Virus record (IMG/VR): IMGVR_UViG_3300020710_000032
Location: 1 to 25,682 of that record
Strand: one strand, 5' to 3'
Length of the DNA stretch: 25,682 nucleotides
DNA from: a virus
The position numbers and the translations under genes are program-made. The notes below the pieces were generated by a model that searched no databases, was not told the origin of the DNA, and worked only from the letters and a program-made list of their open reading frames with translations. Positions 1,728 to 22,203 of this stretch are shown here, piece by piece; position 1 is the stretch's first letter; every line of letters begins with the position of its first letter.

Positions 1728-3500
1728 TTATTTTTTGAATTTCTTAGTCAAAGACTCAGCAACACCTGTCATATCATAAGGCATAGTTTTCTTTTCGATA
1801 ACTTCTGCTTTCTCATTGATTATCTCTACTTTTTCCATTACGGTTGTAGTTTCTCTAAGATCTCTTGTTTGCCAAAAGTTTCTTACTTGATATTCAGTTT
1901 CTAATCTAAAGTATTTAGATTGTGCTAACAATTGATTCTTCTTAGACTCAGATAATTTATTCCAAGTTTCTTTGTATTCTTTAGGCATTGCGCTTACAAC
2001 GTAAGGTTCATTACCTGAAACGTTTTGAGCTCCTGCTAAAGTGTTACTCCATAGAGCATAGATTTGAGATTCAGTTAAGAAACCTTTATTTGATACGGAT
2101 TTAACTACTAAAGTTTTTTCTTCAGTTGAAAGTGTATTGAATTCTTCCTTCTTTGCTTCAGAGATGAATTTAAAGAAATGAGGTTCAGCTACTTGTTTTG
2201 CTGCTGCTTTTTCTAACAATGCAGATAATTTAGAAGAGATTTCTGATTTGTATGCATCCATTCTATCGATAGATTCTACAACTTCTTTTCCAGCTTCATC
2301 TTCACCATCTAATTCTTTTTCTAATTCTTTAGAATCATCGTGTGCAGATTGATCAACGATTTTACCGTCGAATTCGATTTTACCAGAAACGTCTTTAGTT
2401 TTACCGTTTAAATCTTCAGCATCAATACCTGCATCGGTATCAGCTTCCATTAATAAATTGGTATTAACTGTTTCAGCTACATATTCAGCGTACTCAGTAA
2501 CTTTCTCAATGTTTTCTTTAAGATAGTCCATGTACTTCTTAACATTTTCGTGAGTGATTGCTCCGTCATTGTAAGATTCTGCAAGATAGTTTGTGTAGTT
2601 TTTGATTTGTTCAGTACCTTCAGCGATATGCTCTGCGTATTGTATTGATTGATCTAATTTTTCAGCTAATGTATCTGCAAATTGAATGCTTTGATCTGCT
2701 TTTTCTGCAACATGTTCAGAGTAAGCAATAGCTTGATTCATTTTTTCAGCTAAATAAGAAGAGTATTCCTCTAATTTTTCAACTTTAGTGTTTAATGATT
2801 CTGAATCGTTCATCTTAGTGATTGATTCTTTTAAAGCTTTAATTTCTTCAGCTAAGTACTTTGAGTAGTTATTGAAGTCCTCATTGCTTACAAATCTTGG
2901 ATTTTCCATTTTTTCTGCTTCTTTTATTTGTGTGTTTGTGTTTGTAGTATTATCTATCTCATAAATTAAGAGATCCTCGGTATCACCAAAGCCATAAGCC
3001 TCATTAACTCTCTTTAATTCTGCATTTGAAAATCCAGGATCTGCTACTAAATCATAGGTAAAAAGTTGTTTGATTTTAACTTTACCATCAGATTCAACTT
3101 TACCGCATGCTCTAGAAGAAATATGTAAAGGAACTCCAGCATCAACCAACGCTTTAGCTTGCTTACCTGCATCAGTATCTAATAACCTGATCTTTCCTAA
3201 GATTTGTTTGTTTGCTTTATCGTATCTTAGTTCTTCGATAATGTGTGATACGTTCTTTAAAGAAATATCGAAGTTTTGAGGGTGATCTAATTCACCTAAA
3301 AGTTTAGATGAGTTAATTTTAGACTGCAGAGACTCAATTTGAGGTAGGTATTCTGCTTCGGTGTAGATTCTATTGTTACGGTTTAACTTATCGATTTCTC
3401 CGAAAACACCTTCAAGCACATAGGCGCCAGAACTGTCTTGGGTGAATTCCAACGTTGAACCACTTCTTTCAAGAATCAAGAGATTTTTAGCTGTATTCAT
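1728..3500 (-). CDS. 21-22: Fused prohead protease and scaffold (gp21-gp22-like)
   Basis: This 590-aa protein is about the length of T4 gp21 plus gp22. Residues 1-170 are a T4-type prohead serine protease: GELDHP with likely catalytic His73, HISSR with likely Ser128, and YDLVADPGFSNAEL. The His-Ser spacing of 55 equals that recalled for T4 gp21 (His85/Ser140). From about residue 198 onward the protein is helical and charged, with 14-residue repeats carrying L/V/I-A-E (residues ~246-344), an acidic stretch near 370-410 and a C-terminal part with FKFISEA. This fits a gp22-like scaffold assembled inside the prohead and digested on maturation. An in-frame ATG at 2907-2909 (Met198), after an A/G-rich stretch, could start a free scaffold. 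A late-promoter-like box lies 23 nt before the start. The protease call is firm; the scaffold call rests on position, composition and cleavage motifs. Confidence 0.88.
   Translation of the reverse strand: MNTAKNLLILERSGSTLEFTQDSSGAYVLEGVFGEIDKLNRNNRIYTEAEYLPQIESLQSKINSSKLLGELDHPQNFDISLKNVSHIIEELRYDKANKQILGKIRLLDTDAGKQAKALVDAGVPLHISSRACGKVESDGKVKIKQLFTYDLVADPGFSNAELKRVNEAYGFGDTEDLLIYEIDNTTNTNTQIKEAEKMENPRFVSNEDFNNYSKYLAEEIKALKESITKMNDSESLNTKVEKLEEYSSYLAEKMNQAIAYSEHVAEKADQSIQFADTLAEKLDQSIQYAEHIAEGTEQIKNYTNYLAESYNDGAITHENVKKYMDYLKENIEKVTEYAEYVAETVNTNLLMEADTDAGIDAEDLNGKTKDVSGKIEFDGKIVDQSAHDDSKELEKELDGEDEAGKEVVESIDRMDAYKSEISSKLSALLEKAAAKQVAEPHFFKFISEAKKEEFNTLSTEEKTLVVKSVSNKGFLTESQIYALWSNTLAGAQNVSGNEPYVVSAMPKEYKETWNKLSESKKNQLLAQSKYFRLETEYQVRNFWQTRDLRETTTVMEKVEIINEKAEVIEKKTMPYDMTGVAESLTKKFKK
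2469..2765 (-). repeat. 14-residue coding repeats in the scaffold domain
   Basis: The encoded unit is roughly Y-x-x-Y/H-L/V/I-A-E-K-x-x-Q-S-I-x. Clear copies start at residues 246, 260, 274, 288 and 302, then after a spacer at 323 and 337, and a lone unit starts at residue 212. Most contain L/V/I-A-E, matching the (I/L)-x-E rule of T4 prohead protease. This would let one protease cut the scaffold into small peptides. Confidence 0.75.
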
Positions 3501-8098: not shown

Positions 8099-8971
8099 TT
8101 ATGGAGTGTTTTGGTTGTCTAAGATCGATTGATTATTATCCTGTTGCGGAAGAGATGTTACCGCAGATCCCAGAGATGCTTGATTAATAACACCGGTATC
8201 TCCTTGGGATGGATTTAATCCTACGAAAGTAGCTTGATTTTGATTTGTAACCGTAAGATCAATTGTAAACATTCTATTACCGGCATGCAATTCGGTATCG
8301 AACTCGAATACTGGTAGGAAAGTATTTACTTGGATTTCAAAGGTTAATTTATATCTGCCTTTATCGTCGTATGTGTATTCTATCGGACGATCATTTGTAT
8401 AGTCATCTGGCAGAGCGTAATAAGATGCAATCTTATATGTACCTTCACTTAGATGACCGACTTCAACATAGAAATAATTTGATTTGTACAATTTCTTTAA
8501 GATCATTTCGGTAATCTTCAAAGAATCCAATTGAGAGCTAACCATGATATCGATGTCCATTGCCATCGTAACTGGAATCATCATGAATTCTGCGGTATAA
8601 CTTTGCATTGCACCCTGATCATCCAACTTAGAATAATTTCCTCTAATTCTTTTATTTACCAATTTCGCAGATTCAATATTAATTGAAGTTAAATTTGCAA
8701 CTCCTCTTGGTACTCTATCATAATTACCGTCGGCTGGAGTTCCATCTGGACTGCAGTTGGCTCCGTCTGGAGTTGAGAATAAGAAATTGTCTCTTAGAAA
8801 TTGATCATCTCCGGTTACCGAATAATAAAAGGGTACATCGATTGCAACCCTGGTCTTATTATCCATCTGTCGATAGAAATAAACCTTGTTGTTTAAATCA
8901 GCCAATAGACCAATTATTACGTGACGGATCACGCTATCATCGAAATTATATTGTGTGTTATACGAAGCCAT
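8099..8971 (-). CDS. 15: Tail sheath stabiliser and completion protein, T4 gp15-like
   Basis: This 290-aa protein (T4 gp15 is 272 aa) caps the tail tube and sheath before head joining. The N-terminal NFDDSVIRHVIIGLLADL followed by NKVYFYRQ and the VPFYYS segment line up with T4 gp15 FYNSSFRRYATLMGDLFSN, IQIKRQ and VPITYAS. In the middle, SYTAEFMMIPVTMAMDIDIM and ITEMILKKLYKSNYFYVEV match the region where T4 has KMIYELSIFTRYEDDMFQIV. RYKLTFEIQVNTFLPVFEF matches T4 RIEWSLTFEVNGWMYPP. The C-terminus is a Gln/Asn-rich tail probably specific to this phage. It sits alone next to the recombination genes, apart from other tail genes, unlike T4. A late-like box lies only 8 nt before the start. Confidence 0.8.
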   Translation of the reverse strand: MASYNTQYNFDDSVIRHVIIGLLADLNNKVYFYRQMDNKTRVAIDVPFYYSVTGDDQFLRDNFLFSTPDGANCSPDGTPADGNYDRVPRGVANLTSINIESAKLVNKRIRGNYSKLDDQGAMQSYTAEFMMIPVTMAMDIDIMVSSQLDSLKITEMILKKLYKSNYFYVEVGHLSEGTYKIASYYALPDDYTNDRPIEYTYDDKGRYKLTFEIQVNTFLPVFEFDTELHAGNRMFTIDLTVTNQNQATFVGLNPSQGDTGVINQASLGSAVTSLPQQDNNQSILDNQNTP

Positions 8972-8978
8972 AATTAGT

Positions 8979-8987
8979 TTATATATT
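8979..8987 (-). promoter_or_regulatory. Late-promoter-like box before gp15
   Basis: The minus strand reads AATATATAA, but only 8 nt before the ATG. If used, the transcript would be nearly leaderless. It may be a chance match in AT-rich DNA. Confidence 0.25.
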
Positions 8988-10661
8988 TTAATCTATGGCC
9001 TCAACTTCAAATTTAGAGAAACCATTATCTCTATAGATCTGTAACTTCTTATCAAATATTTCATGGGGCAACGTACTGTGATTAATTACAAATGTATTAA
9101 TTTTGCTCTCCTTGATCACTTGACTTAAGATCTTTAAGATATTATATATACCGTCCTGATCTACAGAACTTAATAACTCATCCAAAAATAACAGGTTCAA
9201 TTGAGGGAATCTCAGCTTAAGGATCTTTATGATCGCGATAATGATAATAAAGTCGGCTTTTTTACGCTCACCGGTTGAAAGGGTCATTGCGTTAATCTCT
9301 TGTCCTAAATGCGTGATGACGCAATCGAATTTATCATTGAATTTGATTTGAAATGGAATGTGCATAGTTTGTGACATTGCGCTGATATTTGCATTTAAAC
9401 CAGGCAAGATAGTTTTAACTGCCAAGTTCTTTACTCCATCCTCTCCTAAAACATCTTCAACTATTTCTAAGAATGCATAATCTCCAGCATAATTATCTTT
9501 TTGAGATCCCGTTGCCTGTTCTTTTGCCTGAAAGTCTTCAATGATTTGTTTCATGTGATCGAACTGTTCGGTACCTTCCATACCTTCTTTGATCTGTAAC
9601 AATTCATTCTTTAGGTTTCTAATGTTCACATTCAATGAAGATACCTTATCCAAAACTTGGGTCTCTTTGCTTCTTAATTCTGCGATCGAAACTCCAATAG
9701 CATCAACTATTACCTTTGATTCGCTAATCCTTTCTGGCATCGTAGAAACTTTGGTTGAAATCTGATCTTTACGATGCTGATGAAAATCTGTTGTTAATGG
9801 AGATTCACATGTTGGACATGTTCCACTCTCGTATAACTCAAGTTTCTTTTTTAATTCAGCCATTTCGTAAACCATTTTATTGTAAGATGCTTTATTGATT
9901 TCTAAATCTTTAGATTTCAACTGCATGTTGTCAACTATCTTTTCCTTAGCGTCCTCAAGTTTCTTTTTATTGGTATCAAAGGTAATCAATCTTTGTTTTA
10001 ATTCTTGAATCTTTTCCTTATTCTTTTGATTTGACTCTGCTAATAATTGATTTAACTTTAATTGAACTGAAGTAATGTTTTCGCCGATCTGTTTTAAGTC
10101 CCTTTCATAAGAATCTAAATCAATCTTTAAATTCTTTCTCTCCTCTTTGATTGCCTTTTGCATATCATTCAAGATGGAGAACCCAAACATCCTATCGATA
10201 ATTTGTTTCTTATCGTTAGGAGACATCGTTAAGAATGATTTAAAATCATTTACCGACAATATGATGATATTTTTGAAAACGTGATATGGAATTCCGTAAA
10301 CTTCTTCCTCTAAGTAATCTTGAACTGACTTTTTACCAGCCTTATCAAATTCGATTCCATTCAATAGAACTTTAAAATACGAAGGAGAGAGTCCTCGCTC
10401 AATTACAACTTCAATATTTTTACATTGTACATGCACTCGTACCATTAGGTTCTTATTGATCCTATTTGGAAGCTCATTCATTTTAACACCATCCAATTTG
10501 CCATACAGCGCAAAAACAATTGCATTGGCAATCGAAGTTTTGCCATCTCCATTCTTACCCAATACCAAAAAAAGTTCAGCATTGTTCTCAGTAAAGACCA
10601 ATTTCTGAACCTTATTGCCGTATGATGCAAAATTCTTAAGCTCTATTGATTTTATTTGCAT
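8988..10661 (-). CDS. 46: Recombination endonuclease subunit gp46 (SbcC/Rad50-like)
   Basis: This is the ATPase half of the gp46-gp47 complex, which resects DNA ends for recombination-dependent replication and host DNA breakdown. At 557 aa it is nearly identical in length to T4 gp46 (560 aa). Walker A is GKNGDGKT (residues 35-42). Two long coiled coils flank a zinc hook GTCPTCES (Cys282 and Cys285). The ABC signature LSTGERKK starts at 461, Walker B is LNLLFLDE (488-495), and a His-containing switch follows in NTFVINHS. It begins 7 nt after the gp47 stop, so the pair is translated together. The preceding bases contain AGGA close to the ATG, one of few possible ribosome-binding sites here. Confidence 0.95.
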   Translation of the reverse strand: MQIKSIELKNFASYGNKVQKLVFTENNAELFLVLGKNGDGKTSIANAIVFALYGKLDGVKMNELPNRINKNLMVRVHVQCKNIEVVIERGLSPSYFKVLLNGIEFDKAGKKSVQDYLEEEVYGIPYHVFKNIIILSVNDFKSFLTMSPNDKKQIIDRMFGFSILNDMQKAIKEERKNLKIDLDSYERDLKQIGENITSVQLKLNQLLAESNQKNKEKIQELKQRLITFDTNKKKLEDAKEKIVDNMQLKSKDLEINKASYNKMVYEMAELKKKLELYESGTCPTCESPLTTDFHQHRKDQISTKVSTMPERISESKVIVDAIGVSIAELRSKETQVLDKVSSLNVNIRNLKNELLQIKEGMEGTEQFDHMKQIIEDFQAKEQATGSQKDNYAGDYAFLEIVEDVLGEDGVKNLAVKTILPGLNANISAMSQTMHIPFQIKFNDKFDCVITHLGQEINAMTLSTGERKKADFIIIIAIIKILKLRFPQLNLLFLDELLSSVDQDGIYNILKILSQVIKESKINTFVINHSTLPHEIFDKKLQIYRDNGFSKFEVEAID

Positions 10662-10668
10662 ATCCTGT

Positions 10669-11784
10669 CTATTGTTCTAAGTCGTAATTGTAAGCACACT
10701 TATCGTGTATTAGTTTTAAGCGACTCTTCAACTTTTGTTTCATTTCATCATCATGGCCTAGACCATCAATGTATAAATTACAAAGATGAATGATATTATA
10801 ATTTTTGTATAGATCTTCAATTTGATCCATATCATACAAATCCTTATCGATCAGGTTATCGTCCTCATAGATATTCGGATCGATCTTTCTTGAATCTTTT
10901 TGTACCTTATTGATTAGTTTAGAGAGCGCACTTGAAGTTGCAATCTTTGCAGGTACGTATAAATCTACGAAATTGTTTTTGATTTGTTTTCTAAACTCTT
11001 CAAGAGGAGTCATATATAAACTCTTCAAATTAAATTTTAAAAACCTAGGTGATACTTCATTTTGAAAGAATGTCTCTTCCATTGTTTCTAAATCTACAAG
11101 ATCGAACCCTTTTTTATTTCCGGAATCGGAACGTGTAAGCTCGTATGGAGTACCAACCAATCTTAATTTGCCCTTTTGCTGACGATAGTGAATGTGTCCT
11201 GAATAAACTGCAGAATAATTATTGTAATTATCAATATCGATTCCATGTTGGTTTTTCACCTTTGAATTCAAAGATACACCATTTACTTCAGAGTGACAAA
11301 ATACGATGTTAGTGCTTGGGTGTTTTGCAAGAGTTTCAATCTCATGTGTGGTATCTCTTCTCCAAGGCATTAACAAGATGTTCTTGTCTCCCCACTTGTA
11401 TGTTTTAGTCTTTTTATAAACCTGAACATTTGGAATCCATTTTAAGGTATCAATAGAACTTACTTCGTTTGATTTCTTTGCCCAAATATCGTGGTTACCG
11501 CATATTACATGAACTGGTAAAATCTTACCAAGTCTCTCAAACAATTCGATCGAATAATGTAGGATCCTTAGGTTGACACTTTGTCTATTATCAAATACAT
11601 CACCAACCTGAACTAACACATCACCCGGTTGAACCTCTCTTTCAAGAGTTGGTATGAAAACCTTTTCAAAAAATTCTTGTTGTATTTCTAACCATTCAAT
11701 AGAATTAGATCTAACACCAAAGTGTAGGTCACCTAAGACCCACACTCTTTTTACCGGTTGCTTTAATATTTTTTCATCAATCAT
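10669..11784 (-). CDS. 47: Recombination endonuclease subunit gp47 (SbcD/Mre11-like)
   Basis: This is the metal-dependent nuclease partner of gp46. The 371-aa protein carries the five phosphodiesterase motifs: LGDLHFG (Asp19, His21), GDVFDNR (Asp62), CGNHD (Asn97, His98, Asp99), CHSE (His164) and SGHIHYR (His197, His199). It is slightly longer than T4 gp47 (339 aa), with a charged C-terminal region (NIYEDDNLIDKDLYDMDQIE) that in Mre11 relatives binds the partner coiled coil. Its start overlaps the preceding gene in a TAATG junction (11782-11786), and gp46 follows after 7 nt. Confidence 0.95.
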   Translation of the reverse strand: MIDEKILKQPVKRVWVLGDLHFGVRSNSIEWLEIQQEFFEKVFIPTLEREVQPGDVLVQVGDVFDNRQSVNLRILHYSIELFERLGKILPVHVICGNHDIWAKKSNEVSSIDTLKWIPNVQVYKKTKTYKWGDKNILLMPWRRDTTHEIETLAKHPSTNIVFCHSEVNGVSLNSKVKNQHGIDIDNYNNYSAVYSGHIHYRQQKGKLRLVGTPYELTRSDSGNKKGFDLVDLETMEETFFQNEVSPRFLKFNLKSLYMTPLEEFRKQIKNNFVDLYVPAKIATSSALSKLINKVQKDSRKIDPNIYEDDNLIDKDLYDMDQIEDLYKNYNIIHLCNLYIDGLGHDDEMKQKLKSRLKLIHDKCAYNYDLEQ

Positions 11785-12284
11785 TAGAATAATCGATTTA
11801 TTTTTTTACGTCTTAATATTTTCGTCCTATTATCTAGGGCTTGAATTAAATCATCTTTAAATTTATTACTTAAAGAAGTGTAGAATTTACTGGAATTGAT
11901 ATTAAAATAATCAGCAGTTTCTGCGAATATTTCGATTAATGAATATTTTGCATGTAATTCTGTAGAAACAAATTCATAAATCTCATTAATATCTAACTTC
12001 TTTAATTTTTTTGATTCAGCCAAATCGTCTAAATCATTAAAAGATTTAAATCGAGATGTTAAAATCAGAGCATGAATATCTCTTCTTACCATATCAAGAT
12101 GGATCTTTTCTTCTTCATCAATATTATCAAAATATTGTGGTGATATTTGAAACGATATACTGGTATCAAGATCAAATGATTGATCTTCAAAAGTATTTTC
12201 AAATATCTTATCTCTGGTGCGTGGCGTTGGAGTACCTGGTATCATATCTTTATAATTGATGTATGTTTGAATTGCTAATGTCAT
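11784..12284 (-). CDS. Unknown protein in the recombination cluster (166 aa or 153 aa)
   Basis: I do not recognise this protein. It is mostly helical and charged, with an acidic first half (DQSFDLDTS, IDEEEKIHLD) and a basic C-terminus (RTKILRRKKINRLF). No Walker, zinc or nuclease motif is visible. It sits between the gp41 helicase and gp47, overlapping the helicase end by 35 nt if the ATG at 12284 is used. A second ATG at 12243-12245 (Met14) would start 4 nt after the helicase stop and avoid the overlap; the sequence alone does not decide. Its stop is shared with the gp47 start (TAATG). The context suggests an accessory factor for helicase or recombination nuclease, such as a loader or regulator, but nothing in the sequence proves it. 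Confidence 0.65.
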   Translation of the reverse strand: MTLAIQTYINYKDMIPGTPTPRTRDKIFENTFEDQSFDLDTSISFQISPQYFDNIDEEEKIHLDMVRRDIHALILTSRFKSFNDLDDLAESKKLKKLDINEIYEFVSTELHAKYSLIEIFAETADYFNINSSKFYTSLSNKFKDDLIQALDNRTKILRRKKINRLF

Positions 12285-13557
12285 CCGTTTCTGTTAATCG
12301 CATGAATTGATAATTGATGTTTAATTTACATTTAACACCTCTACCTTCTCCATCTCTGATCTTTAAGATCTTCAACCAATATTCGTACCCTGCTCTCATG
12401 ATGTCATCTTGAATAATACCGAGCATCACATCGGCAGTATGTGAAAGACCTGCAGATTCTGCAACGTCGGTTAAAGTAATGTCGCTTGAGTTATAACCAC
12501 TTCTTGTGATCTGTGTTGCAGTTACAATCAACCATTTATTTCTAACACCCATTGCTCTTAAATCCTCTGCGATCTGTTTGATCTTTAAGTAAGTATTCTC
12601 CGAGTTTGGATTTCTATAGTTTGATAGGATATTAATATAATCGATGACTACGGCTCCTAATTTGATCTTCTTCTCCTCTTCGATCTGTTTAAGATATGCT
12701 TCGATATCCGGCACGGTTGCTTGCGATGTTGGAAATTGTTTTACAAATAAGTTTCCTGGAGGTGTTAAACCATCGCCAACCATTTCTAATCTTCGAGCAA
12801 CATATTCTCCACTCTTGGATTTTTCATCGTAATCTTGCATCGGTATCGATAACAAATTAGATCCGATACGTTTCATGAATTTATAAGCTGACATCTCCGC
12901 GGTAATAACTGCGGTATTGGTACCCATCTTCACGAAATTTGCCGCATCATTTGCCAAGAAGATGGATTTACCGATATTTTGTTCACCAACATAAACTGTC
13001 AGAGTACCATCTTTATCGTATCCACCACCTAAAGCTCTATCTAAGAAGTTATAACCCGTTGAGAATTTGGCAACTCCAGTTTGAACGTGATCTGATGCAT
13101 TGAAGAAATCCAATCCCAAATCAGAATTGAACACCAGTGAATTCCTATCATTGATTAACGATTTAACTTTACCAATTATGTCATCAACATTCTCAGGATT
13201 TACCTTTGTTGTTTTAATGTACTCAATTGTATCAATTAACGTGGTGTCAAAGTTTCTCCACTTGATCCAAGACTCTGCAGTACTTAATAACCAATCTTCA
13301 TCGTACTGTGTTAGATCTGCGGCATAAATAACATCAATAATATCAGGGTCTACTTTACTATTTGATTTTTGAATCAATAATTTCATTTGATCTGGCGAAG
13401 GAGTCTCATGAAATTTATCATAAAACTTCGATGCCAAATAATGAAGTACATCAATTTCTTCACTAGTGTAGAATCCTTTCTTAATTAGACCTAAGTACTT
13501 TGTTTTTTGCAAAGACAACTTAAAGAATATTTTCTCAAAATCTTGTCCGAATTTCAT
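12250..13557 (-). CDS. 41: Replicative DNA helicase, T4 gp41-like (DnaB family)
   Basis: This is the hexameric 5'-3' helicase of the replication fork. The 435-aa protein (T4 gp41 is 475 aa) has an N-terminal helical domain (1-140), then a RecA-like core: STGYNFLDRALGGGY, Walker A GEQNIGKS (191-198), AVITAEMSAYKFMKRIGSNL (the DnaB E-M-S motif), Walker B AVVIDYINIL (Asp306), and WLIVTATQITRSGYNSSD with the sensor Gln. The C-terminus ends soon after the core (TETDDISNSNIHQL), so a long T4-like gp59-binding tail is absent. Its ATG overlaps the stop of the 105-aa gene (TAATG, 13555-13559). No primase (gp61) or classical loader (gp59) is recognised in this window. Confidence 0.93.
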   Translation of the reverse strand: MKFGQDFEKIFFKLSLQKTKYLGLIKKGFYTSEEIDVLHYLASKFYDKFHETPSPDQMKLLIQKSNSKVDPDIIDVIYAADLTQYDEDWLLSTAESWIKWRNFDTTLIDTIEYIKTTKVNPENVDDIIGKVKSLINDRNSLVFNSDLGLDFFNASDHVQTGVAKFSTGYNFLDRALGGGYDKDGTLTVYVGEQNIGKSIFLANDAANFVKMGTNTAVITAEMSAYKFMKRIGSNLLSIPMQDYDEKSKSGEYVARRLEMVGDGLTPPGNLFVKQFPTSQATVPDIEAYLKQIEEEKKIKLGAVVIDYINILSNYRNPNSENTYLKIKQIAEDLRAMGVRNKWLIVTATQITRSGYNSSDITLTDVAESAGLSHTADVMLGIIQDDIMRAGYEYWLKILKIRDGEGRGVKCKLNINYQFMRLTETDDISNSNIHQL

Positions 13558-13875: not shown

Positions 13876-14991
13876 TTAATCTTCTTCGTTTATAATATCA
13901 TCGATCGTAAAATCACCAGCCTCAGTGTTGTAGTTAAATAATGGCTTGATGTACTCATCGATTTGTTTTAATACTTCTGGAGTAAATACTTTATCTGTGA
14001 AGAATTCTGCATTAGAAACTGTATTATCTAAGTGCTTACAGATCCAAGTTCTTGCTGTATCTTTTGGAATCTTTTCTTTTGTTTTAGGATCAATTGTTCC
14101 TCTGGTAACTCCACAGATATCCCATGTTGCATATTTTTCTAATCCAACATATCTATTCATACCTTTACTAAAGTCTAAATGGAATTTGATTGGATTTGGT
14201 TTTGCAAATCTGTTTTTTGCAGGTCTTGCAGTTACCACAATACCAACTTTTTGATCTCCATCTTTTAATTGTGCTTTAGTTAAGATCAATACGATAGACG
14301 CGGCATACTCAGGACCTGTACCACCTCCAACGTTTATCGAAGGCATAAAGTCTTGAGACATGTAAGTATGGTTTGTAAACAAAAAAGGAATCTTTAAATC
14401 AGCCAATGGAGTCATAATGATTCTAAAGATTGATTTTAAAATCTTTGAACGGGTCATATCTGATTTTTCTGATCCAGATACCGCATCATCGATTTCTTTT
14501 TGAGTTGCTAAGTTACCTGCAGAATCTAATAGAATCATGATCTTTGGTAAATCTGCACCGTTTCTTTTAGCCTCTTGCATCTTTCTAGTGATTGTAGTCA
14601 CTGAAGTTCTAAACTCCTGCACCGTATTGATCGGTTGGTAGTTTACTTTATTTAGATCAATACCGAATTTTTTCATTAGATCTTTATCAATTGCTGCTTC
14701 TGAATCGTAATAGATCACTGAATAACCTCTAGCAATTGCCTCACGCACAGTATTTAACATTAAGAATGTTTTACCGGTACCTGAAGGTCCTGCAACTGAG
14801 CAGGCTCTATTGTTTGGCCATCCTTTAAAAAGTGATCCAGCAACGCATGCGTTTAAGTGATAATTACCAGTGTCGATGTATTCTGTTATTTCACTGAAAT
14901 CTGACATTTCCATCACCGATCCTAGAGGATTAATTCCAGAAAGTTCGGCATTTAAATCATCGAACGTAAATTGTTTGTTACTTTTTGCCAT
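13876..14991 (-). CDS. uvsX: Recombinase UvsX (RecA-like)
   Basis: This is the strand-exchange protein for recombination-dependent replication and repair. The 371-aa protein (T4 UvsX is 391 aa) has Walker A GPSGTGKT (68-75), YYDSEAAIDKDLMKKFGID typical of phage RecA proteins, Walker B IMILLDSAGNL (Asp156), and FLFTNHTYMSQDF followed by GGGTGPEYAASIVLIL, the loop region before the DNA-binding L2-like segment. The acidic C-terminus (GDFTIDDIINEED) resembles the acidic tail of T4 UvsX. The ATG lies inside the 3' end of the 66-aa gene (14-nt overlap), and the next gene starts 1 nt after its stop. The UvsY mediator is not recognised in the window; the small neighbours are candidates for such a role. 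Confidence 0.95.
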   Translation of the reverse strand: MAKSNKQFTFDDLNAELSGINPLGSVMEMSDFSEITEYIDTGNYHLNACVAGSLFKGWPNNRACSVAGPSGTGKTFLMLNTVREAIARGYSVIYYDSEAAIDKDLMKKFGIDLNKVNYQPINTVQEFRTSVTTITRKMQEAKRNGADLPKIMILLDSAGNLATQKEIDDAVSGSEKSDMTRSKILKSIFRIIMTPLADLKIPFLFTNHTYMSQDFMPSINVGGGTGPEYAASIVLILTKAQLKDGDQKVGIVVTARPAKNRFAKPNPIKFHLDFSKGMNRYVGLEKYATWDICGVTRGTIDPKTKEKIPKDTARTWICKHLDNTVSNAEFFTDKVFTPEVLKQIDEYIKPLFNYNTEAGDFTIDDIINEED

Positions 14992-15178
14992 TGTTGTTTG
15001 TATTATGTGTTTTTTGTTCTTCTACACGAAGATCTTCTAGTTCTTGTAGGGCAGATTTTAAATCTGTTTCAAGAAGTTGAATTCTGGTTTGAATGGTTTT
15101 GACTCTTGCAAATATTGCTTGGTACCTCTCAACAATTGAAAGTTGAGCTTCATCAAAATTCGATAAATCAATATTCAT
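14978..15178 (-). CDS. Small coiled-coil protein (66 aa), unknown
   Basis: This protein is almost entirely a predicted coiled coil: residues 10-55 (SIVERYQAIFARVKTIQTRI onward) have regular hydrophobic spacing, ending in a polar tail THNTNNNGKK. It sits between the C-terminal polymerase gene (1-nt spacing) and uvsX (14-nt overlap), so it is clearly part of the operon. I do not recognise a family. Mediator proteins such as UvsY are small and helical and act with UvsX, but UvsY is about twice this size and no similarity is visible. The ORF is supported by tight packing on both sides, although its shortness leaves some doubt. Confidence 0.6.
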   Translation of the reverse strand: MNIDLSNFDEAQLSIVERYQAIFARVKTIQTRIQLLETDLKSALQELEDLRVEEQKTHNTNNNGKK

Positions 15179-15179
15179 A

Positions 15180-16376
15180 TTAAAAAAGTGTTGTTGAATA
15201 AATTAAGTTTCTATTTAATGTTTGAAGACCTACACATCCTAAAACTCGATTTAATGGATCGATAATTGATTTTTCAAATTGAGTTTCGTAATCGATTGGA
15301 GGAGCAATTTCATAAGGATGATCTCCTGACAAATAACCGAACATGTCACTTAATTTATTATCACAATGATACAATTTAAGCTTCTCGCCATTTGAAATCA
15401 TACGATACTTTGATTTGTACTTTGGATTTGTATTCATCAAATAATTATAGAATCCTGCTGCTTTAACATTCGGAGGACATTTTAAACCATATTGAAATTC
15501 GATATGATCGTCTACGATGTACTTTTCGATGTTATTGGTTCTTTTGTTAAAGGAAATATCATCAATATTCGTCATCTTGAACTCTTTCTTTACCTTCTTT
15601 AAGAATGAAATAATGGTTGTAAGAGTTTCTGGAGTCGGTTTCTTTTCAAATAGAATATGCAAAGCTTCTGCTAATTTCTTTCTGGCAAACATCGGTGTTG
15701 AAGATTGAATGGTATCAAACCCAACAGTTTTTATCTTCTTCAACATTTTATGTCTTTCCTTTGTGGTGATTTTATCATCCCATGCCAGGTTTTGAAGATA
15801 CTTTTTCTTTGCCATCCAGATTCCAGAGTATGCAACTGATTCTAATTCAAATACCAAGAACGAATCTGTGTTTGTATTTTCTGCATACTTATCTAATGCC
15901 TTTACAACATAATCTCTAATCCTAAGATCATAAATTGTAAGGATGAATGTTACAATGTCCATTTTTTCACCCAACCATTCAATAGATTCATACATTTCCT
16001 GAAACTGAACATAATTCGAATCGGTATCGATATAAATTACGGCAGGTTTTAAGATCTGTCTTTTGACTTTGATATTTAATTGTTTGTGGATTGCAGCATC
16101 TTTTATAAAGAATTCCTGGAAATACTTATTTAAGATCTTCTCAGAATACAAGATCGCATTTTGCCCTTGCAGAGTTATCGATTCTGCGATATCGATATTA
16201 AAGAAGTGAAACCACTTGTTACCAAAGGCTCCATAGATAGAGTTAAGCGTTACTTTAACGGCTTGCTCGTAAGCTGTGAATTTGGCAGATTCATTTGTAT
16301 AGTATTCTGCCAAATTCTTAAGCTCATCGAGTGTTAACTCTTCTTCAGTTTTATTTAAAAGTTCTTCTATTATCAT
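15180..16376 (-). CDS. 43B: DNA polymerase gp43, C-terminal part (split family B polymerase)
   Basis: This carries the polymerase palm and thumb of a T4-type family B enzyme. The 398-aa protein has motif B KVTLNSIYGAFGN (Lys41, Asn45, Tyr48), then the T4-like DIAESITLQGQNAI, and motif C YIDTDS (Asp117, Asp119). It also has the T4-like ESVAYSGIWMAKKKY and VGFDTIQSSTP (T4 MGLETQKSSTP). The C-terminus STTLF could be a clamp-binding tail, where T4 ends SLFDMFDF. It lacks exonuclease and motif A, which are encoded at 20300-21709. The first ~40 residues are acidic and helical (10 acidic, 3 basic) and correspond to the fingers helix before motif B. No intein residues or group I intron core are seen at the break. 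The ATG overlaps the clamp stop (TAATG), so clamp and polymerase part are translationally coupled. Confidence 0.93.
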   Translation of the reverse strand: MIIEELLNKTEEELTLDELKNLAEYYTNESAKFTAYEQAVKVTLNSIYGAFGNKWFHFFNIDIAESITLQGQNAILYSEKILNKYFQEFFIKDAAIHKQLNIKVKRQILKPAVIYIDTDSNYVQFQEMYESIEWLGEKMDIVTFILTIYDLRIRDYVVKALDKYAENTNTDSFLVFELESVAYSGIWMAKKKYLQNLAWDDKITTKERHKMLKKIKTVGFDTIQSSTPMFARKKLAEALHILFEKKPTPETLTTIISFLKKVKKEFKMTNIDDISFNKRTNNIEKYIVDDHIEFQYGLKCPPNVKAAGFYNYLMNTNPKYKSKYRMISNGEKLKLYHCDNKLSDMFGYLSGDHPYEIAPPIDYETQFEKSIIDPLNRVLGCVGLQTLNRNLIYSTTLF

Positions 16377-17122
16377 TAATCAGACGATTGACAAGTTGCA
16401 ATTGTTAATAAAGTGTTCGAATCTTTTGAGCGTAAAACGACTCTGTTTGAGAATACGTTTGCTGCATAGTCTTCTTTATCGAAAAGATTCAAATACTTTT
16501 TATAAACAGTCACATTTGATTTCGCTGCTTGTGTTGTATTAATTAACTTATTGTAAGATTTACCTTTAACTCGTACACCTTCTTTAGATGAAGAGATTGA
16601 GAATGTTTCATCTTTGTCCAAGCCAAATAATGATTTGATCTTAGAAACATCAGTGTAAGTCATATCGAATTGAACGTCTGCTCCATCGATATTAAAGATG
16701 TTTGATAACTGTGATTCGGTCAAGTCTTTGTAACCTAAGCTTGGTTCAGAACAAGACATTGTGATCTCTAATTCATCATTGAAGATCTTAAATGTAGATG
16801 CCACAAAATCTTCATCATTCTCGATGAATTCAATTTCTGCTTGGATTGATTCAAATTCAAATTGACGGAACGCATCGATCAATTTAGATGCATCAAAGAA
16901 TGCTACTTTAAGCTCTTTGGTTGTAGCGATTGGATTTTCAATTACAAATACCTCGGATAGAGGGAATTGAAGGTGCTTTACTGCATCTCGCTGTGGCAAA
17001 TACGCCGAAGAGATGATACTGTCATTTTTGATTTTGAAGTAGATAAAAGAATCAATAACTTTCAGGCGGTTAACAAATGCCACGAAATTGTTTTGATCTA
17101 CTTTTGAGATTGTTACTTTCAT
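16376..17122 (-). CDS. 45: Sliding clamp, T4 gp45-like
   Basis: This is the trimeric processivity clamp, which in T4 also activates late transcription with gp55. At 248 aa it is close to T4 gp45 (228 aa). It opens MKVTISKVDQNNFVAFVNRL and has features of the clamp fold such as FDASKLIDAFRQFEFESIQA and ITMSCSEPSLGYKDL, with a Ser/Lys-rich C-terminal half ending in VLRSKDSNTLLTIATCQSSD. Identification rests on weak sequence resemblance plus length and coupling to the polymerase gene. It starts after a 204-nt spacer with two hairpin terminators, so it probably has its own promoter, though none is clear. Clamp-loader genes 44/62 and regA, which lie between 45 and 43 in T4, are absent here. Confidence 0.8.
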   Translation of the reverse strand: MKVTISKVDQNNFVAFVNRLKVIDSFIYFKIKNDSIISSAYLPQRDAVKHLQFPLSEVFVIENPIATTKELKVAFFDASKLIDAFRQFEFESIQAEIEFIENDEDFVASTFKIFNDELEITMSCSEPSLGYKDLTESQLSNIFNIDGADVQFDMTYTDVSKIKSLFGLDKDETFSISSSKEGVRVKGKSYNKLINTTQAAKSNVTVYKKYLNLFDKEDYAANVFSNRVVLRSKDSNTLLTIATCQSSD

Positions 17123-17180
17123 AATAGTTTAACTTTAAATATTTAGTTATTCTATCCTAAAATTGGAAAATGTTTCACAT

Positions 17181-17208
17181 AAAAAAAGGGATCCAATTGG
17201 ATTCCTTT
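17181..17208 (-). terminator. Terminator hairpin between nrdA and gp45
   Basis: 17185-17194 pairs with 17199-17208 around an AATT loop (10 positions, one mismatch on the minus strand), followed on the minus strand by seven T's. It is the second hairpin after nrdA and resembles the one at 7242-7265 in stem and flank. Confidence 0.65.
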
Positions 17209-17228
17209 AGTTTAATATTGGTGGTATC

Positions 17229-17270
17229 GTTAAAAATAAAAATAGGGCTAGAGTAGCGAATTCTAGCCCT
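17229..17270 (-). terminator. Rho-independent terminator after nrdA
   Basis: AGGGCTAGA (17244-17252) pairs with TCTAGCCCT (17262-17270), a perfect 9-bp stem. On the minus strand it is followed by ATTTTTATTTTTAA. It lies 57 nt after the nrdA stop. Confidence 0.8.
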
Positions 17271-17321
17271 GGTCGGCCATATAACTATAACCGGTCCTAA
17301 GTGAGGTCTTCAAACCTCGAC
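17271..17321 (-). other. Structured RNA segment in the nrdA 3' region
   Basis: Between the nrdA stop and the terminator are a 5-bp hairpin (GAGGT 17303-17307 with ACCTC 17314-17318), an interrupted GGCC/GGTCC stem (17275-17278 with 17293-17297), and a possible closing GTCG/CGAC pair (17272-17275 or 17318-17321). With the terminator this makes a compact multi-hairpin element. It does not fit a tRNA. It may be a 3'-UTR stabiliser or a small RNA; function is unknown. Confidence 0.35.
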
Positions 17322-17326
17322 TATTT

Positions 17327-19147
17327 TTACCCATCACATGAAAGACAATCAACCATCGCTTTGGCTGCAATATCTCCTCTTAATACTGATTCTGTTCTCA
17401 TGTAATAAAGAGTTTTGATACCTTGATTGTATGCTTCTAAGTGAACTTGACTTATAAATTTAGGTTCAGCCTCTAATGGAAATGCCAGATTTAAACTAAC
17501 TGCTTGATCCACGTATTGCTGGCGTACACCTGCTTGCTTAACTAATTCTAATTGATTGATCTCTTTAAAGGTTCTATATACGTCCTTTAAAGCAACATAC
17601 TGATCTTTCTCCATTGATCCGATGCTGTCGTATGCTTCTTGAGAAATTGGATCGGTTTTTGTACCAGTTTGAACATACCATGAATCCATCCAGTCCATTC
17701 CTTGTACTGAACCTCCATCTCTTAGGATTTGATCCCATACATCTGGAGTATTCATTCCAATGGATTCTAATGTAGATTCCAATGTTGGATTCTTTCTAAT
17801 GAATGTACCTTTAGCTGTTTGTTCGGTAAATACATTTGCTGCCCATGGTTCGATACCAGCAGAAACGTTTCCAGATAATTTAGAGTTAGAAACCGTAGGA
17901 GCGATGGCTCTTAAGTGAGTATTTCTAAAACCTGTTCCAACACACCACAGTGGTTCTCCAAACTCTTTTGCCATGTCTCTACTTGCCTTTTCAGATTCAG
18001 TTTTGATTTGACTAAAGATCTTTCTGGTTTCAAATTGAGCCATTAAACTATCGAATGGAATATTTCTTTCTTGTAAATATGTGTGCCATCCCAAAACTCC
18101 AAGACCCAATGCTCTACCTTTTTCAGCAGAACGAACTGCGTTTTGGAATCCTGCCATGTATTTTGCCTTTTGAATAAATTCAGAAAGAACTCCATCTAAA
18201 AACCAAGTTGCAGTATAGATTAAATCAGTGTCCTTCCATTCATCGTATTTTGCTAGGTTCACTGAACTTAAACAACAAACAAAAGAGTGTGATTCATCAG
18301 TATGAAGAGTAATTTCAGAACAGATGTTCGTCATATAAACCTTCAATCCATTATTTTTATAAGCATCTGGACTTGCACGATTTACATTACCTTTGTACAT
18401 GATGTATGGTTCACCAGTTGCTCTTCTTTTTCTAAGTAATGCAGCCCAACGTTTTCTAGCCTCCTTGTCTCCTTGCTCTAATTTCTGCATGAATGCATCT
18501 GAAACTATTGCGCATTGATGGATATTTAAACATTGACGGTTAACATCACCTTTAGGTTCTCTAATTTCTAACCAGTCCCAAAAGTCTCCATGCTCAATAT
18601 CTATATTAACTGAAGCTGCACCTCTTCTAACATTTCCTTGGCTTGTTGCCAAGATCGCTGAATCGTATACTTTAACGAATGGAACGATACCATCAGAGGT
18701 ACCATTTTGACTGATTTTTGTACCAGCTGGACGGATTTGATTTACACCAATTCCAACTCCACCGCCGTGTTTTGCCAATAGCATCATCTCAGAAACCTTG
18801 GCACCGATATCATAAACTGAATCGGCAACATCAATTCCAAAACAAGAGATTGGTAAACCTCTTTCAGTTCCAGTGTTTGAAAATACTGGAGTGGCTAGAT
18901 TTAACCAGCCTCTCCACATATAATCAAAAAATTTGCTTGCCAACTCTGGTTTTTGTACTCTTTTTGCGACTGTCGATGCTACTCTCCAGTATGCATCCTT
19001 CGGTGTTTCTCCTTTCAATAAATATCCTTTAGAAACTGTTTTAACATACACCTCAGTGTTTGCCCAAATCGGAAAATCTACACCTAATTCCCATCCTAGT
19101 TCTTTACCGTGATTTATCTCTTCATTCATTTCTTCTTCTTTAAACAT
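17327..19147 (-). CDS. nrdA: Ribonucleotide reductase large subunit, class I
   Basis: This reduces ribonucleoside diphosphates to deoxy forms to feed phage DNA synthesis. The 606-aa protein is short for NrdA (E. coli 761 aa). The N-terminus goes straight into the ten-helix domain with no ATP-cone, so the usual dATP on/off site is missing. Active-site elements are LPISCFG (Cys102), TNICSEI (Asn274, Cys276, Glu278), VCCLSSVNL (Cys291 or Cys292) and LYYMRT (Tyr581-Tyr582, radical transfer). The C-terminus DCLSCDG supplies the redox cysteine pair (Cys601, Cys604) for thioredoxin/glutaredoxin. It follows nrdB by 23 nt, giving the order B-A (T4 has A-B), and is closed by a terminator. The pair lies between the two halves of the DNA polymerase. 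Confidence 0.97.
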   Translation of the reverse strand: MFKEEEMNEEINHGKELGWELGVDFPIWANTEVYVKTVSKGYLLKGETPKDAYWRVASTVAKRVQKPELASKFFDYMWRGWLNLATPVFSNTGTERGLPISCFGIDVADSVYDIGAKVSEMMLLAKHGGGVGIGVNQIRPAGTKISQNGTSDGIVPFVKVYDSAILATSQGNVRRGAASVNIDIEHGDFWDWLEIREPKGDVNRQCLNIHQCAIVSDAFMQKLEQGDKEARKRWAALLRKRRATGEPYIMYKGNVNRASPDAYKNNGLKVYMTNICSEITLHTDESHSFVCCLSSVNLAKYDEWKDTDLIYTATWFLDGVLSEFIQKAKYMAGFQNAVRSAEKGRALGLGVLGWHTYLQERNIPFDSLMAQFETRKIFSQIKTESEKASRDMAKEFGEPLWCVGTGFRNTHLRAIAPTVSNSKLSGNVSAGIEPWAANVFTEQTAKGTFIRKNPTLESTLESIGMNTPDVWDQILRDGGSVQGMDWMDSWYVQTGTKTDPISQEAYDSIGSMEKDQYVALKDVYRTFKEINQLELVKQAGVRQQYVDQAVSLNLAFPLEAEPKFISQVHLEAYNQGIKTLYYMRTESVLRGDIAAKAMVDCLSCDG

Positions 19148-19170
19148 AATTTGTAATCAATATCTTTTTA

Positions 19171-20187
19171 TTAACTGAAAAGGGCATCTTCATCCCAATT
19201 CTCATCTTCGCCTGCCTTTGAATAATCTGTTGAACGAACCGCAAAGAAATCGGTATGCGTATGTCCACCTGTAAGATGATAAAACCAATCCAATTCGCTT
19301 GCTGCTTTATTATCGATTTCAAAGATCGAAGCATACCCAAGTTCATTCAATTTTTCATTTGCTCTTTTCTTGATGAACTCTTTTAAATCATTTGCCTTTA
19401 AATTCTTTAAGTCACCCATTTCAAACATCTTATCGATAAAATTTAATTCCATCTCAACCATTAGATGCGCAGCCTCTTCGATCTGTGTTTGAATTGAATC
19501 CTTTAATTCAGGATATTCTTCACATAGATGACGAAATAACTGACATCCCATTTTTGAGTGCAACGATTCATCGCGTACAGACCACTTCATTTGTTGACCA
19601 ATGCCCTTGAGCATGTTTCTCATTTGGAATGAATATAACACTGCAAATGATGAATACAATGCGACGCCCTCTGCAAATGCTGAAAAGATTGCTAATGATC
19701 TAGCCACTTCCTTTCTTGCTTCTGAGCTTTTACGTAGGTCTTCGTGAGTGTAATCTGAAGATGTTTCCATCAAGAATTCAAATCTTGCGGCTGTTGTGGG
19801 TTCTTTTAAAAATGCCTTAAAATCTTCTAATCCTAAAGTTTCGTTTAAGTACGAGTACGCTACGGCATGTATTGTTTCCTGGGATCCGAAAGCCATAGCC
19901 ATCTGTCTAATTTCGTGTTTTGGAAACCATTTGGTAACCATTCCGGTCCAGTAGTCTGAAACTGCGCATTCTGTCTGTGCAAATCCTAACAGAATATTTC
20001 CGACTAAATGTTTTTCTGATGCATCAAGATTTTCGTTCCAATCTTTAACGTCTCCTTGCATCGATATTTCTGTGTGCAACCAAAAGGCCTGCATCTGTTT
20101 AAGCCATCCTTCATTGTAGTAAACCGGGTATTCAAAGGGTTTATATTCTACTCGTTCTGTTAAAATCGAAGATTTTGAAATTTCCAT
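19171..20187 (-). CDS. nrdB: Ribonucleotide reductase small subunit, class I
   Basis: This is the di-iron/tyrosyl-radical partner of NrdA. In the 338-aa protein, likely metal ligands are Glu73 (where E. coli has Asp84), Glu104 and His107 in QETIHAVAYSY, Glu173 in FAEGVALYSS, and Glu207 and His210 in RDESLH. Tyr111 stands at the position of the E. coli radical Tyr122 (E-x-x-H-x-x-x-Y). The C-terminal tail (GEDENWDEDALFS) is acidic and ends hydrophobic, as needed to dock on NrdA. The 112-nt leader holds two adjacent hairpins, and AGGA about 17 nt before the ATG is too far for a normal Shine-Dalgarno. nrdA follows after 23 nt. Confidence 0.96.
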   Translation of the reverse strand: MEISKSSILTERVEYKPFEYPVYYNEGWLKQMQAFWLHTEISMQGDVKDWNENLDASEKHLVGNILLGFAQTECAVSDYWTGMVTKWFPKHEIRQMAMAFGSQETIHAVAYSYLNETLGLEDFKAFLKEPTTAARFEFLMETSSDYTHEDLRKSSEARKEVARSLAIFSAFAEGVALYSSFAVLYSFQMRNMLKGIGQQMKWSVRDESLHSKMGCQLFRHLCEEYPELKDSIQTQIEEAAHLMVEMELNFIDKMFEMGDLKNLKANDLKEFIKKRANEKLNELGYASIFEIDNKAASELDWFYHLTGGHTHTDFFAVRSTDYSKAGEDENWDEDALFS

Positions 20188-20225
20188 TTTTCTTGTTTTT
20201 TTTCCTGACTATTAAGACTAAAAAT

Positions 20226-20256
20226 GGTCTAATTCATTTGGGGGTGAAAATAGACC
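20226..20256 (-). promoter_or_regulatory. Hairpin in the nrdB leader
   Basis: GGTCTA (20226-20231) pairs with TAGACC (20251-20256), with inner TTCA (20233-20236) and TGAA (20245-20248). The loop on the minus strand contains five C's. It lies 39 nt before the nrdB start and is followed by CATTTTTAG. It could be a weak terminator for the upstream polymerase gene or a regulatory leader. Confidence 0.45.
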
Positions 20257-20287
20257 GGCGTTCAATATGAAATATATATTTTACGCC
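20257..20287 (-). promoter_or_regulatory. Second hairpin in the nrdB leader, AT-rich loop
   Basis: GGCGT (20257-20261) pairs with ACGCC (20283-20287) around a 21-nt AT-rich loop containing ATATATAT. It directly abuts the hairpin at 20226-20256. The AT-rich part could instead be a -10 element for nrdB. Confidence 0.35.
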
Positions 20288-20299
20288 ATCTAAATCCAA

Positions 20300-21709
20300 C
20301 TATTTTTCGAGCTTTGAAATTTTCTTTTTCAATGTCTCGGCTCTATTATAGTACTCATAAGACAACTTTTTGTAATGTTTTCGTTGTGAATAAAGATCTG
20401 ATAATATTTTTTTCAAGATTGAATCTTCTTTCTTGTAGACAACACCATTTTCACAAACGATGACGTCTTTATCAAGTCTTTTTTCATTGATTTTTGATGT
20501 CGGTATCTTTTCGATAAACGCATCCGGGGAGATGTTAAATTGTCTCATAATTGAAGGATATAGTGATGCAAAGTCAAATGCACTTACTCCTTCATAGAAT
20601 CCGACAATAGGTTCTTTAACAAATGCACCTGCATATTGTGTTTCTTTCTTATTGTCTTCTTTATTTTCTGTACCAATTCTTTTGCCTTCTTCTGTTAACT
20701 TTCTGGCAATTAATGCTTCGGTTATTGCTACGGGGGATGAAGCTTTATATAGAGGCATTTTGGTGATCGATGCTAATGTTAATAACACCTCCATCGATTT
20801 TAATTTCTTATCGATGTAATAGACCAAAACTGAATCGACTACGTTATAATAAACATACTTTTGAAAATTATCTCGATACAGATCTTGTAAAGATCCATTG
20901 TATTTAATTTTGTTGGTTCCTAATACTTGACCTGCAACAAAATCTAATGCATTTGATTCTTTAACCTTAACTGATTTATCATATTTATCGTAAAGTTGCA
21001 TGTAGTCCAAGATTCCCATGTGTAGTGGTCTAGAATCTTCAGTATCTACTGAACCTGTTTTCGATGCTTCTGCAATGTTAATCTGTAAATGTTTACAACG
21101 ATTAACGATATATTGCCAGTCATAATTAATAAAGTTCCATCCAGTCATCATTGGAAATTTTGTCATAAACTTCATTAAGAATGTGTACACCATATCATAT
21201 TCACTTTTGAATTTGATATATTGAAAGCTCCATTCTGGATCGAACTTTTTAAAATATTCATTCGTATCACTTTCGATCTTTTTGATTTGAACGTCTGTCA
21301 AATCTTCTAAACCTAATACGATTGCTTTTTTGTTTGGTGTGATTATTGAAAAGGTAAGGATCCTCGATTTGGCCTCTTCAGCTTTTGGAAAACCATCTAC
21401 AATTTCAGTTTCAATATCGACAAAATACGTTTTAGGCATATTGTATTCATAGATCTCTTCTTTGTCTTTCTCTGAAAGAGAATCCATAAAGTAAACTAAT
21501 GAAAACTTATTGAATTGTCTAGAAGGAACTAATTTAACGGCACGACCATCCCAATTTTCAACCTTATCACTTGTTTGACCATCCTTTTTATCGCTAACAT
21601 ACCAGTTTTTAAATTGATTTACTGGGTATCTTTTGAAGGCAACTTCACCTTCTTTGTTATAATATGATACAATGACTTCTTTTTCACGCTGTTCGATGTC
21701 TAATAACAT
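20300..21709 (-). CDS. 43A: DNA polymerase gp43, N-terminal part (exonuclease and motif A)
   Basis: This carries the N-terminal and 3'-5' proofreading domains plus the first half of the palm of a T4-like family B polymerase. The 469-aa protein has Exo I YFVDIETEI (Asp98, Glu100), Exo II WNFINYDWQYI (Asp197), Exo III YYNVVDSV (Tyr288, Asp292) and motif A FDFASLYPSIMRQFNISPD (Asp379). It stops after a basic helix (YKKLSYEYYNRAETLKKKIS) matching the first fingers helix. Motifs B and C are on the separate protein at 15180-16376. Together 469 + 398 = 867 aa, near T4 gp43 (898 aa), so little is missing. The stop is a clean TAA with no sign of frameshift, intein or homing endonuclease at the break. 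The basic end here and acidic start of the partner suggest that the halves associate. Confidence 0.93.
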   Translation of the reverse strand: MLLDIEQREKEVIVSYYNKEGEVAFKRYPVNQFKNWYVSDKKDGQTSDKVENWDGRAVKLVPSRQFNKFSLVYFMDSLSEKDKEEIYEYNMPKTYFVDIETEIVDGFPKAEEAKSRILTFSIITPNKKAIVLGLEDLTDVQIKKIESDTNEYFKKFDPEWSFQYIKFKSEYDMVYTFLMKFMTKFPMMTGWNFINYDWQYIVNRCKHLQINIAEASKTGSVDTEDSRPLHMGILDYMQLYDKYDKSVKVKESNALDFVAGQVLGTNKIKYNGSLQDLYRDNFQKYVYYNVVDSVLVYYIDKKLKSMEVLLTLASITKMPLYKASSPVAITEALIARKLTEEGKRIGTENKEDNKKETQYAGAFVKEPIVGFYEGVSAFDFASLYPSIMRQFNISPDAFIEKIPTSKINEKRLDKDVIVCENGVVYKKEDSILKKILSDLYSQRKHYKKLSYEYYNRAETLKKKISKLEK

Positions 21710-21735: not shown

Positions 21736-22203
21736 TTAGTAACCTCTCGCTTGGCGAGCTTTATTCTCTGCAGCTTTTGCAAAATAATAATTGTATGCTG
21801 TTTTTGCATCTAATCCAATAGATGAAGCATAATTGATAAAGAAATGCAGAATGTCTATCCATTCCATATACAATTCTTTCTTGTCGTTCTCTGAAAGATC
21901 AGAGATCTTCATTGTTTCGTACTTACTAAAATCTTTCTTCCAATATTTCCATACTGCATTTCCAGAGCCATCTTTAATACCTCCTAGCGCATCGGTCATC
22001 TCATGAATTTCGTCAACAACAGCATGCGTGTTTGTATGCCAAAAATTCATAATGTCTCTAATTGACATGTTTTCGAAATTAAAACCGTAAGTTTTTTCTT
22101 GCATCTCTTTTTGATGCTCCATTATATCGGCTAAATGGGTTGTGGACTGATCATAGAAGTCATTTACTTCCAGATCTTTACATTCATTATCTATGTTTGC
22201 CAT
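21736..22203 (-). CDS. All-alpha NTP pyrophosphatase, dUTPase-like
   Basis: This probably hydrolyses dUTP (or another non-canonical dNTP) to the monophosphate, cleaning the nucleotide pool. The 155-aa protein shows the helical MazG/dimeric-dUTPase pattern: FWHTNTHAVVDEIHEMTDAL (Glu65, Glu68), WKYWKKD, then ELYMEWIDILHFFINYAS (Glu110, Glu114, Asp117) and a final helix AYNYYFAKAAENKARQARGY. These acidic residues should bind Mg. It lies between the base-modification-like genes and the polymerase N-terminal gene (26-nt spacing), consistent with DNA-precursor metabolism. The exact substrate (dUTP or dCTP) cannot be told; a house-cleaning MazG role is the alternative. Confidence 0.78.
   Translation of the reverse strand: MANIDNECKDLEVNDFYDQSTTHLADIMEHQKEMQEKTYGFNFENMSIRDIMNFWHTNTHAVVDEIHEMTDALGGIKDGSGNAVWKYWKKDFSKYETMKISDLSENDKKELYMEWIDILHFFINYASSIGLDAKTAYNYYFAKAAENKARQARGY

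Follow-up and report, generated by a model that had tools for sequence, protein, structure and literature searches.

A gp43-type DNA polymerase divided between two genes at the fingers tip in a clade of phages, with an exchangeable ribonucleotide reductase cassette between the halves

In the virus record IMGVR_UViG_3300020710_000032, a linear fragment that was analyzed over its entire length of 25,682 bases (the window), two separate genes, polN and polC, encode the only family B DNA polymerase, and we consider it highly probable (about 0.88) that together they encode an obligate two-subunit replicative DNA polymerase of the gp43 type. This reading is supported because the catalytic motifs are divided between the halves, the order of the halves is kept, no other polymerase was found in relatives and both halves are under selection, and also because the break is free of inteins and introns and the split gp43 of Aeromonas phage 25 is reportedly active. 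The enzyme itself is an ordinary one in an unusual and stable two-piece form, related to the known split gp43; this kind of cut was known already, and the new findings are its permanence across a large group of aquatic phages and the slot for gene swapping within it.

Both halves lie on the minus strand. PolN (469 amino acids, 20300..21709) matches PF03104 and PF00136, positions 86-501 of RB69 gp43 (E 5e-34) and phrog_2062 (E 2e-84), and comprises the 3'-5' exonuclease domain (PF03104), palm motif A (DFASLYPS, part of PF00136) and the first fingers helix. PolC (398 amino acids, 15180..16376) matches PF00136, positions 547-818 of RB69 gp43 (E 2e-19) and phrog_1918 (E 2e-69), and comprises the second fingers helix, motif B (KVTLNSIYGAFGN), motif C (YIDTDS) and the thumb, with PF00136 matching from motif B on. 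Pfam, PHROGs and alignments to RB69 and T4 thus find the exonuclease motifs and motifs A, B and C in the order of gp43, complete but divided, with A on PolN and B and C on PolC; the motif residues, including the catalytic aspartates of motifs A and C, are invariant in alignments of 34 sequences. Extrapolation from phmmer alignments to RB69 gp43 places the break between the two long fingers helices, at about RB69 508-520. The five genes of the region share the minus strand and run polN, nrdB, nrdA, clamp, polC, that is, in the N-to-C order of the protein, and the approximately 3.9 kb from polN to polC hold three intact genes, with no homing endonuclease among them. An original prediction, made from the letters of the window alone, had given the coordinates and lengths of the halves exactly, and its assignment of the motifs to the two proteins, its placing of the break in the fingers between motifs A and B, and its naming of nrdB, nrdA and a clamp gene as the intervening genes were borne out by Pfam, by the RB69 alignments and, for the clamp, by the predicted fold. 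Each half has a PHROGs family of its own, and such halves are therefore already present in databases.

The same gene order on one strand was found in 79 of the 79 distinct IMG/VR contigs that carry both halves, with the halves 3.6-7.6 kb apart, and all split relatives that were aligned are broken at the fingers tip. The original prediction had proposed this search for the same break and order, and had named two findings that would count against a split polymerase; neither was made, as no contig with both halves places them together and no full-length polymerase was found elsewhere in relatives of up to 256 kb. The relatives searched for a second polymerase span 145-256 kb: PF00136 matches were confined to the two halves in 10 relatives of 151-256 kb, and 12 relatives yielded no polymerase of family A or C. 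Where the ratio of nonsynonymous to synonymous substitution rates could be calculated between relatives, it was approximately 0.02-0.10 for both halves, which are under strong purifying selection. The fission is thus the fixed state of the whole clade, a new observation, and we found no paper describing this clade's split in the open-access literature, which was the scope of the search as opposed to subscription papers. Scans of viral contigs with the polymerase of Sphingomonas phage PAU as query matched only PAU itself, and those with the polymerase of Flavobacterium phage MaF61 matched nothing.

The fingers consist of two long antiparallel helices, and the cut takes out nothing but the turn at their tip. 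The two fingers helices would re-pair and the palm would close around the aspartates of motifs A and C, so that the two chains form a single active site with no splicing step. PolC is translated beside the clamp, with which its gene overlaps, and belongs to a clamp-polC-uvsX-gp41 replication operon; polN lies upstream, behind mazG. The proposed assembly is supported by Aeromonas phage 25, whose gp43A and gp43B are reported to co-purify and to have polymerase activity (PMC2988022); Aeromonas phage 44RR, a close relative of phage 25, is cut at the same place. An AlphaFold2 model of the C half alone (predicted local distance difference test score, pLDDT, 54) was not confidently folded and is uninformative, although such a fold may, as weak evidence, fit the need for a partner.

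The original prediction had further proposed that assembly is guided by charge, and its counts are correct: the last 30 residues of PolN hold 10 K/R to 3 D/E and the first 40 residues of PolC 3 K to 10 D/E, and mean net charges across the clade are +4.4 at the end of the N half and -5.1 at the start of the C half. The pattern is consistent only within the clade, however, since polymerases of other lineages cut at the same place have net charges (N end/C start) of -7/+1 in LR756501, -2/+3 in LR756504 and 0/-2 in PAU, and T4, whose polymerase is uncut, already has a basic first fingers helix. With signs that vanish or reverse across lineages, charge-guided docking is rejected as a general rule, and docking via the fingers helix pair and the palm is the simpler reading.

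Several points weigh against the two-subunit reading. The assembly and activity of PolN with PolC are what we infer for a clade that is known here from sequence; the window is an incomplete contig of only 25.7 kb, because of which the lack of a second polymerase is drawn from near relatives; and the low confidence of the C-half model may be due simply to a shallow alignment. It is conceivable, too, that each half has a separate job, the N half being a free 3'-5' exonuclease and the C half something else, with a host polymerase replicating the phage. The exonuclease domain does lie wholly on the N half, and Rhodothermus phage RM378 keeps its polymerase core apart from any exonuclease, but the motif A and motif C aspartates are on different chains and yet invariant, which makes sense only if one active site is shared, and the C half is surrounded by T4-type clamp, helicase and RecA genes. 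We therefore regard separate functions as very improbable.

It is also very improbable, in our view, that the halves are joined into a single-chain active enzyme by a split intein or, at the RNA level, by trans-splicing. Split inteins do occur in relatives: the C halves of the uncultured huge phage LR756500, of Lak-A2 and of Tenacibaculum phage PTm1 carry intein parts at motif C (between DTD and S), Pfam Intein_splicing matched in LR756500 and PTm1, and PTm1 is annotated as having a split intein. Those inteins sit at motif C, however, and the fingers break of the same phages is separate and intein-free, while in the window the end of the N half and the start of the C half both fall within the fingers helices, with no intein residues, no Pfam intein match in either half and no Rfam match to a group I or group II intron at the break. 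That the break stems from misassembly, from a genome rearrangement confined to one strain or from the decay of a gene is an idea to which we give next to no credence; the window is indeed a metagenome contig, but the same order stands in the 79 distinct contigs from many metagenomes, contigs from other samples match one half or both halves of the window with 100% identity, and strong purifying selection on both halves contradicts decay. An artefact of assembly is refuted by these independent assemblies. What the evidence favors remains an obligate pair of subunits, PolN and PolC.

The wider relationships of this pair were examined in a tree of both halves together with intact polymerases, in which the clade of the window groups with LR756500, other huge phages, PAU, Chryseobacterium phage MA9V-1, PTm1 and Lak phages (100/100). 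The break is the same in PAU, MA9V-1 and PTm1, where two to four other genes separate the halves, and the huge phages LR756500-504 and Prevotella Lak belong to the same clade by the tree and have the same fingers break; these split halves, in some cases hundreds of kb from each other, had gone mostly unremarked. Unlike in the window, the halves in Lak-A2, LR756501, LR756502 and LR756504 are more than 100 kb apart and on opposite strands, and PTm1, LR756500 and Lak-A2 have the additional break at motif C with split-intein sequence. The original prediction had called the arrangement special; this holds against T4 and 44RR, but within the clade it is the ordinary fixed state, and some relatives have halves much farther apart. 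The intact polymerase of MaF61 falls inside the 100/100 clade on a very long branch, and a single clade of the 15 split members was not rejected (p 0.31), so that either a re-fusion in MaF61 or a branching before the split would be compatible with the tree.

Fission at this turn has happened more than once. In the same tree 44RR groups with T4, and Agrobacterium phage Atu_ph07 groups with the intact RaK2, and the approximately unbiased (AU) test rejects joining either to the clade of the window (p 5e-4 for 44RR and 2e-47 for Atu_ph07). A single origin for all fingers splits is thereby rejected for these two phages, and the tree accordingly indicates at least three fissions at this fingers turn, with that of the window's clade independent of the Aeromonas and Atu_ph07 fissions at the same place, which is a new result of the sequence comparison. 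As the original prediction recognized, split gp43 is known in T4-like phages: the gp43A and gp43B of Aeromonas phages 44RR and 25 are also a family B polymerase cut at the fingers tip, the first cistron encoding the N-terminal part and the second the C-terminal part. Those cistrons are 49 bp apart in 44RR and separated by a homing endonuclease in phage 25, whereas nrdB, nrdA and the clamp lie between the halves of the window; neither the Aeromonas type of adjacency, a short untranslated gap and/or a homing endonuclease, nor common descent with the Aeromonas split (AU p 5e-4) was found for the window. In Atu_ph07 (MF403008, 211877-214846) the polymerase is divided into two genes at the same fingers turn, with 18 bp between them, in a separate lineage whose relatives RaK2 and PA5oct are uncut there. 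The split PolB of Methanobacteriales and of Nanoarchaeum, compared here by its description in a review, is also a family B polymerase divided in two genes, but it is explained by intein excision or trans-splicing rather than by fission at the fingers tip (PMC4104785). The parallel that the original prediction drew with a two-gene polymerase in RM378 did not hold: RM378 is T4-like and its polymerase core open reading frame (ORF) is also shorter than gp43, but motifs A, B and C are all on one 522-residue ORF, and the division is therefore not in the fingers. In LR756500, the ORF directly after the N half has a match to DUF7487 and a weak match to a restriction-endonuclease domain and is plausibly a homing endonuclease, a candidate that hints that such an element may have made the original cut.

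Between the halves of the window lie nrdB (19171..20187, minus strand; PF00268, E 1e-58) and nrdA (17327..19147, minus strand; PF02867, E 2e-88), the small and large subunits of a ribonucleotide reductase of type I in our grouping. The window NrdB and NrdA are only 30% and 42% identical to the type II proteins of the nearest polymerase relatives (contigs L006, L007 and L012) and approximately 80-85% identical to those of more distant polymerase relatives (e.g., L013 and L068), and the two non-orthologous nrdBA types require at least three changes on the polN-clamp-polC tree. Some relatives hold one to six extra genes, for example ATP-grasp and alanine-dehydrogenase-like genes, between nrdA and the clamp. 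The swapped types and the extra genes identify the gap between the halves as an exchange site, in which nrdBA is an exchangeable cassette; this is new, and together with the old association of the clamp and the C half it was missed by the original prediction, which had correctly recognized a T4-type fingers split. Related phages swap the reductase pair of this slot and, in some relatives, extra genes, and the polymerase halves keep their positions.

Several details of the slot were seen in individual contigs. A metabolic-looking pair, an ATP-grasp gene and an alanine dehydrogenase/PNT-like gene, lies between nrdA and the clamp in the type II relatives L143 (12457-14615), L052 (6055-8200) and L061 (6606-8754), and an ATP-grasp gene lies in the nrdA-clamp interval of LR756500 too. 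The nrdA of LR756500 (L234) is split by intein parts (11187-13031 and 8860-10032, minus strand) inside the polN-clamp interval, and in L082 (4761-7814, plus strand) an ORF separates two pieces of nrdA, the second of which starts like the C-terminal part of an intein ending in HNC. Type II NrdB closely resembles PDB 6sf4/5olk (441 bits), a class Id enzyme from Leeuwenhoekiella, a marine flavobacterium. This resemblance, together with the cultured relatives infecting Chryseobacterium, Tenacibaculum and Prevotella, suggests that the hosts are Bacteroidota.

A replicative polymerase is commonly pictured as a single chain with little tolerance for disruption, and here a whole clade, with genomes of approximately 150 kb to more than 700 kb, has its polymerase in two pieces. 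These phages form a natural system in which to ask how two chains build one catalytic core, why a cut is tolerated at the fingers tip and by what means halves that are not linked stay balanced, and they show a site where non-orthologous ribonucleotide reductases swap within a replication operon. Genomes of this kind are misread by annotation pipelines built around a single gp43. A further idea, which we hold to be rather doubtful, is that the fission at the fingers tip is kept by selection and not merely tolerated, with separate transcripts giving control over polymerase assembly and the gap serving as a protected slot for nrd cassettes or cargo exchanged via recombination in the flanking polymerase and clamp genes. 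If this were true, the three or more independent fissions at this turn would mark a general evolutionary route to multi-subunit polymerases.

The clamp gene encodes a PCNA/gp45-type sliding clamp of 248 amino acids (16376..17122, minus strand), and its stop codon overlaps the start of polC (TAATG). No match was found for it in Pfam, in PHROGs, in a PDB profile search or by hhalign against T4 gp45, and the assignment is based on a predicted PCNA-like fold (AlphaFold2 pLDDT 87; Foldseek to PCNA, E 1.4e-11). By hhalign, homologues of this clamp stand directly before the C half in PAU (94.6%) and MA9V-1 (91.0%) and one gene before it in PTm1 (80.8% probability), with 96.9% for the three phages combined; the position of the clamp before the C half is thus an old association kept in distant members of the clade, and is newly described here.

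Upstream of polN is a gene for a MazG-like nucleotide pyrophosphohydrolase (21736..22203, minus strand; phrog_173, E 1e-13), which is in this position in every relative examined. Downstream of polC, and likewise on the minus strand, are an ORF of 66 amino acids (14978..15178) that is conserved in part of the clade, the RecA-like uvsX (13876..14991; PF00154) and a gp41-type DnaB-like helicase (12250..13557; PF03796, E 2e-20); uvsX and then the helicase follow polC throughout the contigs compared. Cyanophages with an intact gp43 have the order gp43-uvsX-gp41 (S-PM2 and DSL-LC02), from which it follows that the C half retains the downstream neighbors of intact gp43.

Besides uvsX and the helicase, the window contains gp46/47-like genes and the T4-type head genes gp23, gp21 and gp20, and its portal protein is nearest to that of LR756500 (58%), followed by those of other huge phages, PAU and Lak phages. 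The gp21-type prohead protease (1728-3500, minus strand) is long (590 amino acids), and only its N-terminal part matches peptidase S77/S80. A TnsA-like endonuclease (PF08722; 6307-6792, minus strand) lies among the head and tail genes and has a homologue near the C half in MA9V-1; a role in packaging or recombination is possible. Many otherwise unrelated small proteins share the N-terminal tag MKHIKLFEQF(V/I)NE(A), with 2-9 per genome in seven of eight relatives and 0 matches in a reversed-pattern control. Tagged genes lie between gp23 and gp21 in the window (1359-1703, minus strand) and between nrdA and the clamp in L007, L012, L052, L060 and L143. The tag resembles the capsid-targeting sequence (CTS) of T4, and by this likeness it may mark small proteins that are packaged in the head. 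The CTS of the T4 internal head proteins has been described (PMC9026906).

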